From: Mesotoga prima MesG1.Ag.4.2
GTDB lineage: Bacteria > Thermotogota > Thermotogae > Petrotogales > Kosmotogaceae
Reading direction: 5' to 3'
Assembly (NCBI RefSeq): GCF_000147715.2
Contig: NC_017934.1
Coordinates: 186,001 to 250,000 of the forward strand
DNA length: 64,000 bases
Below are positions 1 through 40,153 of the stretch, one piece after another. The position numbers and the translations under genes are program-made. How positions within the stretch are numbered: position 1 is the stretch's first letter; each line of letters begins with the position of its first letter. Below the pieces are notes generated by a model. The model ran no database searches. It was not told where the DNA came from and saw nothing but the letters and a program-made list of their open reading frames with translations.

Positions 1-20
1 GACGATTATGCGAATCTTTT

Positions 21-44
21 GTAGGGGCGAACGGCCGTTCGCCC
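21..44 (+). repeat. Family A REP hairpin, left end of RAYT element
   Basis: A GTAG foot (21-24) is followed by the perfect 20-bp palindrome GGGCGAACGGCCGTTCGCCC (25-44). A 5' GTAG next to a hairpin is the layout of REP sequences recognised by RAYT enzymes, and a RAYT gene starts 33 bases downstream. Other copies in this orientation, with the same upstream flank containing TTCTTTTGTAG, lie at 3623-3646, 3803-3826, 6148-6171 and 9115-9138. Confidence 0.85.
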
Positions 45-76
45 GTAAGAGCAAAAAGATCTCGGAGGGTTGCGTT

Positions 77-667
77 TTGGAACACAATGAAAGTCTTGTC
101 AAAAGGCGGTCAATTAGACTGAAGGAGTATGATTATTCTCGAACCGGAGCATACTTCTTGACAATATGTACGCATCGTAGGCAATGTTTGTTGGGATCCA
201 TGGTTGATAGCAGAGTAATCTTGAGTAGCATTGGCAAAATCGTTGTTGAAGAGTGGCTAAGATCTGCAGAAGTCAGAAAGGAAATCGAACTAGATGCGTT
301 TGTGATAATGCCAAATCACCTGCATGGGATTGTAGCGATACATGGAGGCGAAAGGGAAATTGTCAGCAACTGTTTGGAAGCAGAAAGAAGAACTATAAAA
401 CCAAAGACGATTGGTTCTTTCGTCTCAGGCTTCAAAGCAGCTGCAACGGTTCGAGTGAACGAACTGCGCGGCACACCCGGGAAATCTATTTGGCAACGAA
501 ACTACTATGAACATGTCATCCGCAATGAGAAAGAACTGAATCGAATTCGTGAGTACATTGAGAATAACCCCTTGAGATGGCAGATAGACAGAGAGAATCC
601 CTACAGAAAGACAAGTCAGGTTCTTTCAACTATTGAAGAGGACGATCTCTATCCTTGGGAAGACTGA
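77..667 (+). CDS. REP-associated tyrosine transposase (RAYT, Y1 HUH family)
   Basis: This is a single-strand-processing transposase of the IS200/Y1 class that acts on REP hairpins. The HUH metal-binding motif is seen as PNHLHG, and the catalytic Tyr lies in the later stretch WQRNYYEHVI, followed by the family's typical ENNPLRW. I choose the TTG at 77 because GGAGGG (64-69) sits 7 bases upstream; the longer frame from the ATG at 8 would translate the REP hairpin itself. The gene is intact at about 196 residues. It lies between a left GTAG hairpin (21-44) and a right inverted hairpin with CTAC (679-702), so gene and ends form one unit. Its last ~60 bp recur as fossils near 12571 and 16302. The family assignment is from motifs; the domesticated versus mobile state is not visible here. 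Confidence 0.9.
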   Translation: MEHNESLVKRRSIRLKEYDYSRTGAYFLTICTHRRQCLLGSMVDSRVILSSIGKIVVEEWLRSAEVRKEIELDAFVIMPNHLHGIVAIHGGEREIVSNCLEAERRTIKPKTIGSFVSGFKAAATVRVNELRGTPGKSIWQRNYYEHVIRNEKELNRIREYIENNPLRWQIDRENPYRKTSQVLSTIEEDDLYPWED

Positions 668-678
668 TCCTTAATAGC

Positions 679-702
679 GGGCGTGCCGCCGCACGCCCCT
701 AC
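679..702 (-). repeat. Family A' inverted REP hairpin, right end of RAYT element
   Basis: Stem GGGCGTGC (679-686), loop CGCC, stem GCACGCCC (691-698), then CTAC (699-702), which is GTAG on the other strand. It starts 11 bases after the RAYT stop. With the left hairpin it gives the two-REP inverted arrangement of REPINs, but the two stems differ in sequence. Further copies lie at 12631-12654 and 16359-16382. Confidence 0.8.
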
Positions 703-3207: not shown

Positions 3208-3713
3208 AAGAGCCTTGGATATCTTGAGCACGTGCTGCCTTTGCTGTTAGGCGAAAATCATTGAAGTGAGTTTCACTATTGAAGGAAAAAGCGTGAAACT
3301 AGTTTCCGCTATCCCTGCCTGTTATTTCCATAAGAAGATAAGAGACTAGAAAGAGCAGATTAGAAACTAAACGACACGAGATTCATTGAATGAGCAAAAG
3401 TGGGACTCACATTCGGTTAATAGCATCAGTGGAAGTGAGGCACGCTTTGCCGTCAGAAAGCCAATGAATCGAGAAAGAGCATGTCGAGACGCTCGCTCCG
3501 CTCGCGAGAAGACGAGAGTTTATAATCACTTACTGTCAACCGTCAGCATCGGGAAGACGCAATGAGGGACTTACGATAAACTGTTACCAGATGAAAGTCC
3601 CAGACGATTATGCAATTCTTTTGTAGGGGCGAACGGCCGTTCGCCCGAAAGAGAATCGTGCGAAAAGAGGGACCTCACATACGGGGAACCGGGTCTGGGG
3701 TTATCAGTTCTCG
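3208..3713. repeat. Gene-free stretch with partial copies of the MFS unit 3' end and one REP
   Basis: No credible gene is seen. A block with TGTCGAGACGCTCGCT (about 3482) and one with CGGGAAGACGCAATGAGG (about 3551) match the 3' end of the duplicated MFS units (near 5856 and 6035). This looks like the eroded end of a further unit. A family A REP hairpin lies at 3623-3646. Confidence 0.5.
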
Positions 3714-6058
3714 GAATAGACGGGGACAGACGTCAGTAGCCCGTCAGTCCCCTATTCGAAATGCTACCAGATGACAATTCCAGACGATTATGCAATTCTT
3801 TTGTAGGGGCGAACGGCTGTTCGCCCGAAAGAGTTATGATAGCGGAGCAAAAGTGTCGGTCTTATAGATCATAGACCCAGATCCTGCGCAGAGATCCTGA
3901 ACAGGAAACCCCAAACAGGAGCCCTGAACAAGAGCATTTCAGGGCAGGCTCATTGGAGCAGGCTCTACAGGATGATTGAGTAAGAAGTTGATTTGAGTAA
4001 CTCGGGTAGTCGCTATTCCCCTCGGTCAAGTCATTCTGAGATGATCCTGCTCAGAATCTCGGCGCACAAAACTGTGCAGACCATTATAGTGCACACCCTC
4101 CGCCACTACGTGGCCCTCCTCCCTCGAGGGAGGATTTAAGATCAGGATCATTAGGGGCCAACCACAGCATTCACGCAAGAACCAGCACATTTATGGTCTT
4201 GAACTCCCTGACTTATGGGTAATGATAAGCTCCATCAAGGGAAGATTTTGGATGAGAAATATCAGGAGCCAAATACGGCGTATATTGTTGAGAGAGAAGG
4301 ACATCGCATTATTTCTCAATAGCTCTTTGACTTGGGTAATGACGAGCTCCTCTGGACAGATAACGAGAACCAAGAGAAATAGAGAATAACAGATCTTTAG
4401 TCAATTCTTCTTAATTGTCTTGGTTTTCACCTACAACCCACAACAACAACCCACAACGGCACTTCACCCAGTTCTCTTTGAATCATACAGTTCCAGGACT
4501 CTAGGCTCATTCTTGAAATCCCGATAAAACAGGAAGATGATGAAAGCATTTGCAGCATAAAACGCAGTGCTCAATAAGAACAACTCTGTATAACCGCTGA
4601 TAGAAGTGCCGACTATGAACCCGAAGATCATTGCAGCGACTGCCCTGACTGTGTTGTTGAGAAATCCGTTTATTCCCGATACTGTTGATAGCTTCGAATC
4701 TGGAACATATGAGAAGATTATTGAGGTCATGATCGGGTTAGTTATGTTCATGAAGACGAATCTGAAGGCATAGAGTATCGTGAAAAGAATCGGCTCTCTC
4801 ACAATCACTAGAGAGAGCATCAAGGGGATAACAAGCAACTGCATTGTCAGGTTGAACTTCAGTGCCCCAAAGCGTTTACCCAGCTTGTGCGAGAGTGTTG
4901 AACCGGCTGCCGTTCCAAGCTGAGCAATGGACAAGGCAATTCCGATAGCAGTTGCCGACATGTTGAATAAGTCCTTGAATATGAGATTTCCAAAGTGAAT
5001 GAAGAGCCCGGCTCCAAAACCCACCGTTGCCGTGGAAATGAAGTAGTAGGTAAGCACCTTCCTCTGGTCTTGCTGAAGCCCCGAAAAGTTGAAGAGTTCC
5101 TTCAACTTGGATCGCGATTCAGTCATCTCGAGTCTGATTACCGGTATGATTGCCGGTAGATGTGCAACCATAGAGATTATTAGAGTTGTCTGAAGACCGA
5201 AGAGATCTCCAAAGGCCCCGCCGATAAAATTGCCGATGACTCCGCTTGCCATGTTGATCCCGAAATTCAAACCGAAGACCTTTGCCCTGTTTCCCGTCTT
5301 TGTTATGCTTGTCATTGTCGCCATGACCACTGTAAAGGCAGTTACTGTGAAACCGCCTTTGATGAATGACAAAACGATAATTAACGTCGGATCGACAACG
5401 AATGCAAGTGCTATTCCAGAAACGGGAACTACAATCGCAGAGAGAAAGAGAATCTTCTTCTTTCCAATAGTATCCGCGAGAACAGCTGTGAGCAGTCCAA
5501 TGATCGCCGAGCCCCACAACTGAGCAGAAGTGACGTTGCCTATGAGGTGGTTTGAGAAACCGATTTCCCTCAGATATAAGTTATAGACAACGCGGTACAT
5601 GGAGATGGTTATTGTAGTAATGAATGTATAAGTCAGCAGTAATACGATTCTCTTTCTCAACCGGAAGACCTTCTTTGTTAGATTTGCTTACTATATATTA
5701 CCATTTTGGAAGGATTCTGTGGGATGATTAAGTTCGGCAGCTGCTGACGCAGGCCAGTTCCGCTTCGCTGGCCACAAGATCCGCTGAACGCTGGCTAGAA
5801 GACGCTGATCGCTGTGAAGAGCCATCCTTGGATAAGATTAATCGAGAAAATCTAATGTCGAGACGCTCGCTTCGCTCGTGAGAAGAAGAGAGTTTATAAT
5901 CATTAGCCGTCAACGGTCCAATGAGAAAAGAACGGAAAGAGCGGGTTATAATATGTGGGTTAACTAGAACGGGTTATCAAAACTGGGTTATGAAAACCAA
6001 ATAGGATTGATTTGCGCAAAGGCACATTTGTTTCGGGAAGACGCAGTGAGGGACTTAC
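3714..6058. repeat. Tandem duplication unit 1 (2345 bp, carries MFS gene 1)
   Basis: The unit starts at GAATAGACGGGGACAG (3714); the same motif starts unit 2 at 6059 and follows unit 2 at 8165. Unit 1 has about 239 bp more than unit 2, between about 4130 and 4420 upstream of the MFS stop. It includes a REP hairpin (3803-3826). The stretch 3827-4463 holds only repeat-like, non-coding sequence. Confidence 0.85.
4464..5660 (-). CDS. Major facilitator superfamily transporter, copy 1
   Basis: A 398-residue membrane protein with about 12 hydrophobic segments in two halves, a basic loop after TM2 (ADTIGKKK) typical of MFS, and a charged central loop (MTESRSKLKEL...QQDQRK). Substrate cannot be read from the sequence; an efflux or sugar/drug-type carrier is possible. 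The start is TTG at 5660. It differs from copy 2 by one residue (SATAIGI against SATGIGI). The downstream flank and about 400 bp upstream are also duplicated. The single gene in each unit suggests a dosage effect or a very recent event. Confidence 0.85.
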   Translation of the reverse strand: MRKRIVLLLTYTFITTITISMYRVVYNLYLREIGFSNHLIGNVTSAQLWGSAIIGLLTAVLADTIGKKKILFLSAIVVPVSGIALAFVVDPTLIIVLSFIKGGFTVTAFTVVMATMTSITKTGNRAKVFGLNFGINMASGVIGNFIGGAFGDLFGLQTTLIISMVAHLPAIIPVIRLEMTESRSKLKELFNFSGLQQDQRKVLTYYFISTATVGFGAGLFIHFGNLIFKDLFNMSATAIGIALSIAQLGTAAGSTLSHKLGKRFGALKFNLTMQLLVIPLMLSLVIVREPILFTILYAFRFVFMNITNPIMTSIIFSYVPDSKLSTVSGINGFLNNTVRAVAAMIFGFIVGTSISGYTELFLLSTAFYAANAFIIFLFYRDFKNEPRVLELYDSKRTG

Positions 6059-8164
6059 GAATAGACGGGGACAGACGTCAGTAGCCCGTCAGTCCCCTAT
6101 TCGAAATGCTACCAGATGACAATTCCAGACAATTTAGCAGTTCTTTTGTAGGGGCGAACGGCCGTTCGCCCGAAAGAGTAATGATAGCGGAGCAAAAGTG
6201 TCGGTCTGATAGACCATAGACTTAGGACTTGCGCAGAAACCCTGAACAGGAGACCCCAAACAGGAGCCCTGAACAAGAGCATTTCAGGGCAGGCTTTACA
6301 GGATGATTGAGTAAGAAGTTGATTTGAGTAACTCGGGTAGTCGCTATTCCCCTCGGTCAAGTCATTCTGAGATGATCCTGCTCAGAATCTCGGCGCACAA
6401 AACTGTGCAGACCATTATAGTGCACACCCTCCGCCACTACGTGGCCCTCCTCCCTCAAGGGAGGATCTATAAGAATGAGGAGATGTAGATGGTAACAGAT
6501 CTTCGAATAACTCTCCTGACTGGCTCTAGTTTTAACCTACAACCCACAACAACAACCCACAACGGCACTTCACCCAGTTCTCTTTGAATCATACAGTTCC
6601 AGGACTCTAGGCTCATTCTTGAAATCCCGATAAAACAGGAAGATGATGAAAGCATTTGCAGCATAAAACGCAGTGCTCAATAAGAACAACTCTGTATAAC
6701 CGCTGATAGAAGTGCCGACTATGAACCCGAAGATCATTGCAGCGACTGCCCTGACTGTGTTGTTGAGAAATCCGTTTATTCCCGATACTGTTGATAGCTT
6801 CGAATCTGGAACATACGAAAATATTATTGAGGTCATGATCGGGTTAGTTATGTTCATGAAGACGAATCTGAAGGCATAGAGTATCGTGAAAAGAATCGGC
6901 TCTCTCACAATCACTAGAGAGAGCATCAAGGGGATAACAAGCAACTGCATTGTCAGGTTGAACTTCAGTGCCCCAAAGCGTTTACCCAGCTTGTGCGAGA
7001 GTGTTGAACCGGCTGCCGTTCCAAGCTGTGCAATTGACAAGGCAATTCCGATACCTGTTGCCGACATGTTGAATAAGTCCTTGAATATTAGATTTCCAAA
7101 GTGAATGAAAAGCCCGGCTCCAAAACCCACGGTTGCCGTGGAAATGAAGTAGTAGGTAAGCACCTTTCGCTGGTCTTGCTGGAGCCCCGAAAAGTTGAAG
7201 AGTTCCTTCAACTTGGATCGCGATTCAGTCATCTCGAGTCTGATTACCGGTATGATTGCCGGTAGATGTGCAACCATAGAGATTATTAGAGTTGTCTGAA
7301 GACCGAAGAGATCTCCAAAGGCCCCGCCGATAAAATTGCCGATGACTCCGCTTGCCATGTTGATCCCGAAATTCAAACCGAAGACCTTTGCCCTGTTTCC
7401 CGTCTTTGTTATGCTTGTCATTGTCGCCATGACCACTGTAAAGGCAGTTACTGTGAAACCGCCTTTGATGAATGACAAAACGATAATTAACGTCGGATCG
7501 ACAACGAATGCAAGTGCTATTCCAGAAACGGGAACTACAATCGCAGAGAGAAAGAGAATCTTCTTCTTTCCAATAGTATCCGCGAGAACAGCTGTGAGCA
7601 GTCCAATGATCGCCGAGCCCCACAACTGAGCAGAAGTGACGTTGCCTATGAGGTGGTTTGAGAAACCGATTTCCCTCAGATATAAGTTATAGACAACGCG
7701 GTACATGGAGATGGTTATTGTAGTAATGAATGTATAAGTCAGCAGTAATACGATTCTCTTTCTCAACCGGAAGACCTTCTTTGTTAGATTTGCTTACTAT
7801 ATATTACCATTTTGGAAGGATTCTGTGGGATGATTAAGTTCGGCAGCTGCTGACGCAGGCCAGTTCCGCTTCGCTGGCCACAAGATCCGCTGAACGCTGG
7901 CTAGAAGACGCTGATCGCTGTGAAGAGCCATCCTTGGATAAGATTAATCGAGAAAATCTAATGTCGAGACGCTCGCTTCGCTCGTGAGAAGAAGAGAGTT
8001 TATAATCATTAGCCGTCAACGGTCCAATGAGAAAAGAACGGAAAGAGCGGGTTATAATATGTGGGTTAACTAGAACGGGTTATCAAAACTGGGTTATGAA
8101 AACCAAATAGGATTGATTTGCGCAAAGGCACATTTGTTTCGGGAAGACGCAGTGAGGGACTTAC
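6059..8164. repeat. Tandem duplication unit 2 (2106 bp, carries MFS gene 2)
   Basis: Second copy of the unit, offset exactly 2106 bases from unit 1 over the MFS gene and its upstream flank. It includes a REP hairpin (6148-6171). Within the gene all the differences I could find lie between 6816 and 7182 (4710 to 5076 in unit 1); the remainder reads as identical. Confidence 0.88.
6570..7766 (-). CDS. Major facilitator superfamily transporter, copy 2
   Basis: A 398-residue MFS carrier, identical to the copy at 4464-5660 except for Ala to Gly in SATGIGI. The other differences seen are silent and clustered in a ~370-bp patch. It has the same TTG start and the same upstream sequence, so both copies should be expressed alike. 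Membrane topology and function are as for copy 1; the substrate is unknown. Confidence 0.85.
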   Translation of the reverse strand: MRKRIVLLLTYTFITTITISMYRVVYNLYLREIGFSNHLIGNVTSAQLWGSAIIGLLTAVLADTIGKKKILFLSAIVVPVSGIALAFVVDPTLIIVLSFIKGGFTVTAFTVVMATMTSITKTGNRAKVFGLNFGINMASGVIGNFIGGAFGDLFGLQTTLIISMVAHLPAIIPVIRLEMTESRSKLKELFNFSGLQQDQRKVLTYYFISTATVGFGAGLFIHFGNLIFKDLFNMSATGIGIALSIAQLGTAAGSTLSHKLGKRFGALKFNLTMQLLVIPLMLSLVIVREPILFTILYAFRFVFMNITNPIMTSIIFSYVPDSKLSTVSGINGFLNNTVRAVAAMIFGFIVGTSISGYTELFLLSTAFYAANAFIIFLFYRDFKNEPRVLELYDSKRTG

Positions 8165-8211: not shown

Positions 8212-8880
8212 TCCCTTATCAGTACTCTTTTGGGCGAACAGCCGTTCGCCCCTACAGAAAGAAATCGACACACTATTCTATAATACTGCTGCACGATCAA
8301 GATGAAGACCCTTATCGCTGGAGGAACCGCTTGTTTGAAACGCTGTAGGCTAATCACTCAGAAAAACAACAAGAAGTTGAGTGACGTGAAAATAGAATGG
8401 CCGTCATCCTGTGAGCGCTTCTGCACAGGATCTGGATCTTCTATCTGTGAAACCGCTGCTCTTGTTTCCTTATCAGCTCTCGTGGGCGAACAGCCGTTCG
8501 CCCCTACAGAAAGAAATCGACACACTGTCCTATAACACTGCTGCACGATCAAGATGAAGACCCTTATCGCTGGAGGAACCGCTTGTTTGAAACGCTGTAG
8601 GCTAATCGCTCAGAAAAACAATAAGAATTAGAGTGACGTGAAAATAGAATGGCCGTCATCCTGTGAGCGCTTCCGCACAGGATCTGGATCTTCTATCTGT
8701 GAAACCGCTGCTCTTGTTTCCTTATCAGCTCTCGTGGGCGAACAGCCGTTCGCCCCTACAGAAAGAAATCGACACACTGTCCTATAATACTGCTGCACGA
8801 TCAAGATGAAGACCCTTATCGCTGGAGGAACCGCTTGTTTGAAACGCTGTAGGCTAATCGCTCAGAAAAACAATAACAAG
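8212..8880. repeat. 252-bp tandem repeat, about 2.7 copies, each with an inverted REP
   Basis: Copies begin near 8212, 8466 and 8718. Each holds GGGCGAACAGCCGTTCGCCC followed by CTAC (8232-8255, 8484-8507, 8736-8759), that is, a REP in the orientation opposite to those at 3623 or 6148. Each also has the block ATGAAGACCCTTATCGCTGG (8302, 8554, 8806). The short frame opened by that ATG has no ribosome site and is not counted as a gene. Confidence 0.85.
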
Positions 8881-9486
8881 TGCATGATTCTGAATCGGAT
8901 CATTGATCAAGAGGATCGTCTACCGGCTCTTCACGTTCTTCCTGTGCAGCATATCTTTTGCTCCTCTCGCTCGGAGTTCGGAAAATCGTTTACGGTGAAC
9001 CTGCAAATGTCTCCTGCCGAAGGCGTAACGGACGGTGACAGACGTCAGAAGCCCGTCAGTACCCTATTCGAAATGCTACGGGATGACAATTCCAGACGAT
9101 TATGCAATTCTTTTGTAGGGGCGAACGGCTGTTCGCCCGAAAAAGGTCCTGGTTGGAATCTCTGCCTTTACCGCGAAAAAAAGGACCTTAGGAACTGGTC
9201 AGTCCACATTTTCGCCCTCGCCTTCTCTTGAGCGCCGCGAACTCTCTAATATGCTCTTTCTCGGCTACTCACAGCCTTGCAACATGGCACTTGGAACTGT
9301 TCTTCCAGCGTTCAGCGGCACTTTGAGATGGCAGTTCATATAGGGATTCTCTTAGGGGAAAACTTTGCCCAGATTCACCAGAATCTATCACATGAATGCC
9401 TACGAGAAATCAACCTGGCCACTAGAAAATCTTTTATAGACTAAGATACGAGCTCTTGTTGCAGCAGGTATTCTCCCTCAATCGTT
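8881..9486. other. Gene-free stretch with one REP
   Basis: It contains another degenerate copy of the unit-border motif (GACAGACGTCAGAAGCCCGT, near 9037) and a REP hairpin (9115-9138, with T replacing C in the palindrome centre). The remainder up to the toxin gene shows no convincing gene, RNA or repeat. Confidence 0.5.
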
Positions 9487-12570: not shown

Positions 12571-12654
12571 TCGTTCAACTATTGAAGAGGACGATCTCTA
12601 TCCTTGGGAAGACTGATCATTATTGATAGCGGGCGTGCCGCCGCACGCCCCTAC
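12571..12654 (+). pseudogene. Fossil RAYT 3' end with right REP
   Basis: TCAACTATTGAAGAGGACGA and the following codons encode the last residues of the RAYT (STIEEDDLYPWED then stop). They are followed by the family A' hairpin with CTAC (12631-12654). The sequence is nearly identical to 627-702, but nothing upstream matches the RAYT gene. Spacer and E-like sequence follow to about 12745. Confidence 0.8.
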
Positions 12655-16301: not shown

Positions 16302-16382
16302 TCGTTCAACTATTGAGGAGGACGATCTCTATCCTTGGGAAGACTGATCCTCAATAGCGGGCGTGCCGCCGCACGCCCCTAC
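16302..16382 (+). pseudogene. Second fossil RAYT 3' end with right REP
   Basis: Encodes the last RAYT residues (STIEEDDLYPWED, stop) and then the A' hairpin GGGCGTGCCGCCGCACGCCC with CTAC (16359-16382). A conserved spacer and family E continue to 16533, where E meets the 3' end of the ABC permease gene. Confidence 0.8.
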
Positions 16383-29256: not shown

Positions 29257-29566
29257 GCGTATCCCTCCCAATCGTGATTATAGCACTTATTAGAGAGAGG
29301 CTAGTAACCTTCGGTGGGCAGTTACACTGCATGCGGCCTGCGACAGCAGACTGGATCTTTTTCCCTCCTGCGAAGCAGCATCACTTCCCCGGACGTTTCT
29401 TCGGGCATCACTGCCTCGCGCATGCGAGCCTCACTTCCGGCGATGCTTTTCGCCGCATCACTTCTGTTCTTGCTCTCTTCTCCGAGGACGGCGGACCGTC
29501 AACGGTGGACCAGTTTCTCTTGCTCTTGCGAACCCCCGACCTGCTACCACCGACCACGGTTCTGTA
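29257..29566 (+). repeat. Gene-free stretch ending in a family E repeat
   Basis: 29280-29465 holds GC-rich imperfect direct repeats (GCATCACTTCC near 29378, and variants GCATCACTGCC and GCATCACTTCT). E follows (about 29475-29566) and ends beside the rRNA operon terminator. No gene is supported. Confidence 0.6.
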
Positions 29567-29600
29567 CCAAAACAAAAAGGAGAGTCAAAAAGACTCTCCT
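29567..29600 (-). terminator. rRNA operon terminator
   Basis: Stem AGGAGAGTC / GACTCTCCT (29578-29586 with 29592-29600). On the minus strand it is followed by a T-rich tract. It lies 13 bases past the 5S 3' end. Confidence 0.9.
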
Positions 29601-39488: not shown

Positions 39489-40153
39489 ACCAGTGAATCC
39501 AGCCTTTCGAGATAGGATACTTTCTTCACGACTTCAAGCCTTTTTATTGCACTAAGCAGATGCTCGTCCGGTTCATTATCCAGTTCGACTACGCATAGAG
39601 CCTCGTGCCTGAACGGGTCTACTCTTGAAAGAAAGAGATTGCTGATGTTCATATCGCTCGAAGAAATCGCCCCTACAATCTTTGAAAGAGCCCCGGGAAT
39701 ATCTGCGTTCAGTATCACTAGCGAGGGATACTTTCCAGTAACGTCGGTTTCGAAATCATCTATCGCAGTAATCCTTACCGAACCGCCACCAACCGATGCT
39801 CCTGTCACTGTCAAGAAGGACTCACCGGAGCTCCCGTTGATCTTAACTGTGTTTGGATGAAAGTCACCCATGTCTTCTTCTTCGAAAGTGAAATAGATGC
39901 CCTTGCCTTTTGCTATTTGGAAGGAGTCTCTCAGCATGGGATCTGATTCCTTGATCCCCATTATTCCGCCGACGAGAGCTCTATCTGAACCGTGGCCCCT
40001 GAAAGTTGCGAAGAGCGGTGAGTTGAGCACAAATCGCACTTCGTTAGGCGTTTTGGCAAAGAGTGACCGAAAGGCCCTGCCTAACCTTGCCATGCCGGCG
40101 GTATGGGAGCTCGACGGCCCCACAATTGCCGGACCAATAATATCTAGCAGCAT
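39485..40153 (-). CDS. sdaAB: L-serine dehydratase, iron-sulfur-dependent, beta subunit
   Basis: A 222-residue partner subunit with the family opening IIGPAIVGPSSSHTAGMARLGRAFR, GHGSDRALVGGIMG, and a C-terminal ACT domain (about 148-222, SLVILNADIPGALSKIVGAISSSDMNIS) that may sense serine. The ATG at 40153 has GGAGG upstream. First gene of the sdaAB-sdaAA pair, placed behind the eno terminator. Confidence 0.95.
   Translation of the reverse strand: MLLDIIGPAIVGPSSSHTAGMARLGRAFRSLFAKTPNEVRFVLNSPLFATFRGHGSDRALVGGIMGIKESDPMLRDSFQIAKGKGIYFTFEEEDMGDFHPNTVKINGSSGESFLTVTGASVGGGSVRITAIDDFETDVTGKYPSLVILNADIPGALSKIVGAISSSDMNISNLFLSRVDPFRHEALCVVELDNEPDEHLLSAIKRLEVVKKVSYLERLDSLV

Follow-up and report, generated by a model that had tools for sequence, protein, structure and literature searches.

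A putative REPtron in Mesotoga prima: a RAYT gene between inverted GTAG-footed REPs, with signs of mobility as a unit

Introduction

RAYT (TnpAREP) genes have been described as always flanked by two inverted REPs, and yafM of Escherichia coli, which together with the Y and Z2 REPs exemplifies the REPtrons of the Gammaproteobacteria, is delimited by two different REPs (PMC2817692). Neither multiple copies nor changes of location were found for RAYTs by Nunvar et al., and these genes are regarded as domesticated (PMC2817692). The available portion of a 2013 survey names the Thermotogae only for CGTC repeats (PMC3733652), and REPs of Mesotoga prima were counted in a survey from 2025 (PMC12306157).

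The DNA analysed here is a stretch of 64,000 nt (the window) from the genome of M. prima MesG1.Ag.4.2 (G000; 2.98 Mb, two contigs), beginning at C1:186001. At its left end lies a block that, overall, is best and quite probably explained as a REPtron, that is, a RAYT gene bordered by its own cognate REPs in inverted orientation. The block represents a new case for the RAYT/REPtron family, with unusual signs of mobility as a unit, and would provide the Thermotogota with a worked GTAG REPtron.

Results

The RAYT gene and its product

The RAYT gene is predicted at window positions 77–667 (+), and its product, of 196 aa, would be a Y1-type HUH single-strand endonuclease. The reading frame is open from position 8, and the initial annotation had given 8–702 as the span of the gene with its hairpins. 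The RAYT identity stands, and a start at 8 is less likely: translation from position 8 would read through the left hairpin, and the copy of the gene in a second Mesotoga genome (G009) has no ATG ahead of that hairpin, so that the TTG at 77 is the likelier start. The sequence GGAGGG at 64–69 (+) is a probable ribosome binding site, to judge from its spacing to this TTG.

Among protein family models, the RAYT model NF047646 gave the best match (E value 4.4e-20), although its score of 72 bits lies below the curated cut-off of 80 bits; PF01797 was matched with an E value of 4e-7. The sole solved relative found was the TnpAREP of E. coli (4er8), with which the sequence can be aligned. The HUH motif, MPNHLHG, places H80 and H82 on the HUH histidines of 4er8, Y159 on the catalytic Y115, and N163 on N119. 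Five residues of 4er8 that contact the GTAG foot, W94, Q95, E100, H101 and R104 (PMC6006769), correspond to W138, Q139, E144, H145 and R148, all of which are identical. In these key residues the protein agrees with the Y1 HUH protein of the gammaproteobacterial REPtrons.

Within the genus, RAYT matches were obtained only in G000, G003, G004 and G009. Intact copies are present in G000, G009 and G004; the gene of G003 is broken and follows a left hairpin where a contig stops. Pairwise dN/dS values among the copies ranged from about 0.18 to 0.42, which argues that at least some of them have been kept by selection.

The flanking hairpins

The left REP (21–44, +) consists of a GTAG foot and a 20-base perfect palindrome (GGGCGAACGGCCGTTCGCCC), with a computed DNA fold of -9.7 kcal/mol (z -2.9). 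The right REP (679–702, -) consists of a GTAG foot, an 8-bp stem and a 4-base loop (GTAGGGGCGTGCGGCGGCACGCCC on the minus strand; -11.9 kcal/mol, z -2.6). On the plus strand it reads GGGCGTGC-CGCC-GCACGCCC followed by CTAC, equivalent to GTAG plus hairpin on the minus strand. Both hairpins, on either strand, fold better than shuffled sequences. It is apparent that the gene lies between two GTAG-footed hairpins, as first annotated, and that these are inverted; inverted REPs with GT(A/G)G feet thus stand on either side of the RAYT, and cognate REPs are dispersed in the same genome.

The sequence GTAGGGGCG occurs 12 times in the window, compared with 0.16 occurrences expected from dinucleotide shuffles, and a chance origin of these hits is thereby excluded. 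A lone occurrence at 39668–39676 (-) cannot be assigned to either type of hairpin, left or right.

The two hairpins had originally been considered different in kind. When the left (GTAGGGGCGAACGGCCGTTCGCCC) and right (GTAGGGGCGTGCGGCGGCACGCCC) sequences are placed in one register, however, 19 of 24 positions agree, and the changes in the stem, from AA/TT to TG/CA, preserve pairing. Judged by this comparison, the two are forms of one REP design in which the inner stem is variable.

In insertion sequences of the IS200/IS605 family (IS608, ISDra2), each of the two hairpins has its guide sequence on its 5' side, and both guides lie on the same strand. The Mesotoga block resembles these elements in its related catalytic domain and in having hairpins near both ends, and a true insertion sequence of this kind, with distinct left and right ends and excision as a single-stranded circle, would be in keeping with a gene edged by hairpins at several loci and with the internally deleted derivatives described below. 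In the present block, however, the two feet occupy opposite strands, which prevents the hairpins from both offering a 5' guide on the same strand. Moreover, the protein scored only 17.3 bits (E value 0.0043) with the IS200 model, for which the cut-off is 55, and a search of the genome for an IS200-type TnpA gave no match, whereas the RAYT residues are kept. On hairpin orientation and the protein model, membership of the IS200/IS605 family was rejected, and an origin as such an insertion sequence is considered very improbable. The proposal that distinct ends bring the unit closer to IS200/IS605 can thus be set aside, since the ends are variants of one REP and both orientation and protein model disagree with it.

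Comparison with RAYT loci of other phyla

At 42 of the 80 RAYT loci examined, which come from many phyla, a GT[AG]G hairpin lay within 250 bp; the same was true of 3 of 67 control stretches. Hairpins were present on both sides of the gene at 19 of the loci; the scan reported the same arm at 13 and unequal arms at 6, one of which (L140) was set aside as a scan artefact, leaving about 5 of 19 with unequal arms. The premise that known REPs pair alike, and that the Mesotoga locus is exceptional in this respect, fails in view of these unequal loci and of E. coli yafM with its two different REPs.

With yafM the block shares a gene between inverted GTAG-footed REPs, possibly unequal, and many REPs elsewhere in the genome (PMC2817692). 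It differs in phylum and in its perfect stem, that of E. coli being bulged, and, unlike the gammaproteobacterial REPtrons, it is accompanied by several closely similar blocks and by deleted forms. A likeness in hairpin form to TnpAREP subclass 2.4 (TnpAY1 family), which is scattered over the phyla and abundant in Cyanobacteria and Bacteroidetes, may also be noted: the REP is long and canonical, with a foot followed by three G-C pairs (GTAG-GGGC... in both hairpins), and relatives in many phyla share GTAGGGGC-headed hairpins. Unlike in those relatives, 39 of whose 96 hairpins are double-footed, neither Mesotoga hairpin has two feet, and no REP is situated inside the gene.

Distribution of the hairpins

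Approximately 44 left-type hairpins were identified in G000 (up to 3 mismatches, the second reading of the palindrome being set aside), mostly without a gene, together with 13 of the right type; a reversed-pattern control for these searches of the genome gave 0. Each type is also found without the other, the left type mostly so. Left-type REPs without a RAYT are situated in the window at 3623–3646, 3803–3826, 6148–6171 and 9115–9138 (all +), and three others (8232–8255, 8484–8507 and 8736–8759, all -) form a 252-bp tandem. At 12631–12654 and 16359–16382 (both -), a right-type REP is attached to a RAYT 3' end, the gene being incomplete. Indeed, each of the 27 right-type copies examined in G000, G009 and G004, among them all 13 of G000, is preceded by part of the RAYT 3' end, if only a short one.

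Dozens of hairpins were observed in G000, G004 and G009 and fewer in G003, these being the four genomes in which RAYT matches were obtained; one or two were seen in G001, G005 and G008, and searches of G002, G006 and G007 revealed none. Two matches to the left REP were found in viral contigs, neither of them with a RAYT. The REPs of G000 show strong clustering, in C1:150000–205000 and in C1:1155000–1285000. REP-headed tandem arrays, with steps of 252 and 260 bp, occur at window positions 8232–8759 and at G000 C1:152392–152934. The right-type array carries RAYT 3' ends, and array length varies between species.

Recurrence of the block

Blocks running from left REP to right REP, either full or internally deleted, were found at three loci in G000, four in G009 and two in G004; five are internally deleted. 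The full blocks are those at G000 186021–186702, G009 C1:50420–51101, and G004 C26:1164–481 and C26:20540–19859. Those internally deleted, with both ends present, are at G000 165521–165836 and 176237–176551, and at G009 C1:20696, 40349 and 74125. In the deleted form of about 315 bp, residues about 58 and 143 are joined and the HUH motif is gone; the form at G009 74125 has a different junction. In keeping both ends without the HUH motif, the deleted blocks (about 315 bp) resemble MITEs and deleted derivatives of insertion sequences, although their movement by the RAYT remains putative.

Complete left-gene-right units, which the initial annotation had proposed to look for, therefore recur at several loci in three species. 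Left and right hairpins also occur apart from a complete gene, as would be expected if a gene and two hairpins of separate origin had merely come to lie together by chance. Since full blocks nevertheless recur in three species and the same layout is seen at RAYTs of other phyla, that explanation is hardly credible.

The number of events is smaller than the number of loci, because some blocks are orthologous to each other: those at G000 176237 and G009 40349 lie within a stretch of 98.9 % identity. This stretch, of 10 kb (G000 C1:175813–186051 and G009 C1:39928–50163), is flanked by stretches of 78–92 % identity, which suggests a recent exchange. In addition, RAYT blocks are situated at all three borders of a duplicated 8.5-kb cluster in G000, and some copies may therefore be by-products of duplication. 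The two copies of this cluster, 78.5 % identical, lie just upstream of the window (G000 C1:167087–175595 and 177100–185620); its genes encode an aspartokinase-homoserine dehydrogenase, a PALP-family enzyme, a GHMP kinase, an asparagine synthase, an octopine-dehydrogenase-like protein and a B12-binding protein. G009 has a single copy of the cluster in the stretch compared, with a block on either side.

Edges of the block

Flanking sequences were sorted into classes, the counts being taken from selected stretches of the genomes. RAYT-type tails stand behind four upstream classes (U1, U2, U4 and U9), and the sequences diverge at GTAG or within a few bases of it. One upstream class, ending in CATGCACTTCTT, runs into GTAG in several copies, whereas in others unrelated DNA follows (CATGCACTTGTT-ATTG...). 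The break does not always fall precisely at GTAG, since at G000 1252933 the shared module seems to start some 12 bases to the 5' side of the foot. The commonest upstream module was not found without a hairpin in the stretches searched.

On the right side, the flank beyond CTAC is conserved beside 26 of the 27 right REPs in G000, G009 and G004 (703–751, +, at the present block); only one copy, at G004 C26:19859, diverges at CTAC, and hence a right edge at the foot is suggested by this copy only. The base in the loop is tied more closely to the downstream than to the upstream side (mutual information 0.31 versus 0.14), a pattern consistent with breakage on the 5' side of the hairpin, though the linkage is confounded by ancestry.

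A CT within 6 bases 5' of GTAG was present in 140 of 141 left REPs (background 0.32) and absent in 26 of 27 right REPs, an asymmetry that had at first looked functional. The 96 hairpins at RAYTs of other phyla showed no excess of CT near the foot (0.22 versus 0.25). A CT cleavage site beside the foot was considered and dropped, given this result and the shared ancestry of the copies.

Evidence for and against movement of the block

The block shows 96.8 % identity between G000 and G004, compared with 82.3 % for the adjacent operon and 89 % for a more distant gene. For G000 and G009 the values are 99.2 % for the operon but 96.8 % for the block, whose left neighbours differ in the two genomes. 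The identities of block and neighbours are discordant, and the history of the block is therefore not that of its neighbours.

One locus carries the block in G004, in full, and in G009, in deleted form, but G000 lacks it there. Beyond the sequence corresponding to window position 29337, both relatives have REP modules together with the block, as far as a sequence matching position 29569 beside a ribosomal RNA operon; G000 has 230 bp of other DNA at 29337–29569. Since the contigs of both relatives end there and the difference in G009 starts about 200 bp before the first hairpin, the locus represents a mosaic presence/absence and not an exact insertion. A pairwise search over 838 kb yielded no base-exact empty site for any block, and the downstream flank of the second G004 block has no counterpart in any relative through which its empty site could be sought. 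A weak candidate is a 64-bp left-REP segment at G004 C36:5157 that is missing in a G009 repeat copy of about 80 % identity. The search for empty sites envisaged in the initial annotation thus provided a presence/absence locus and not a base-exact empty site, and transposition as a unit is accordingly suggested, not demonstrated.

The edges, the deleted forms and the pattern of divergence suggest that the block as a whole was copied to different loci of the genus. It is conceivable, and proposed here with some reserve, that TnpAREP mobilises the whole unit from GTAG to CTAC, which would give rise to full copies, interspecies transfer and deleted, non-autonomous forms. Such movement, if true, would be at odds with the literature, according to which REPtrons are not transposed as units. 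The full copies, deleted forms and present/absent locus in Mesotoga make REPtron mobility a testable question.

The main rival account of the same loci, which opposes movement alone and not the identity of the gene and REPs, has a substantial, though less than even, likelihood. According to it, the block does not transpose; RAYT and REPs are passengers in a large patchwork of intergenic repeats, which homologous recombination and tandem duplication keep rearranging, and the hairpins amount to no more than short shared stretches at the meeting points of different repeats. The REPs do indeed sit in mosaic repeats of 130–550 bp and in tandem arrays, with steps of 252–260 bp, whose number differs between species, and blocks adjoin a tandemly duplicated operon. 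Upstream classes also reassort with downstream ones, as crossing-over inside the hairpin could likewise bring about. This account is opposed by the several pairs in which the left edge falls at GTAG with unrelated sequence upstream, by the closer similarity of the block than of its neighbours between G000 and G004, and by the retention of both ends in the deleted forms.

For the REPtron proposed here, a mechanism may be outlined. By analogy with the TnpAREP proteins of E. coli, Stenotrophomonas and Marinomonas, the RAYT should cut and rejoin single-stranded REP DNA (PMC8266576). The enzyme most likely binds GTAG-footed REP hairpins exposed as single strands; it would cut near the foot through a 5'-phosphotyrosine link, and the strands would then be rejoined. 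As a result, REP-headed DNA would spread, joined to new upstream sequence, and the block itself may move through the enzyme's own action. Of the two ends, the left REP is probably the more active, being the abundant form and having upstream neighbours that change at GTAG. The right REP accompanies the RAYT 3' end.

Genes adjacent to the REPs

The next gene downstream of the RAYT encodes a PAS-HD protein (849–2156, -) and adjoins the right REP. Its HD_5 match reaches position 109 of 170 at the last residue of the protein, so that the protein ends in the middle of the HD domain, where the repeat flank starts. The gene therefore looks 3'-truncated; the same junction is present in G009.

A transporter-like gene is tandemly duplicated in the window (4464–5687 and 6570–7793). 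The copies are 98.9 % identical, with left-type REPs beside them, and G009 has one copy in the stretch compared.
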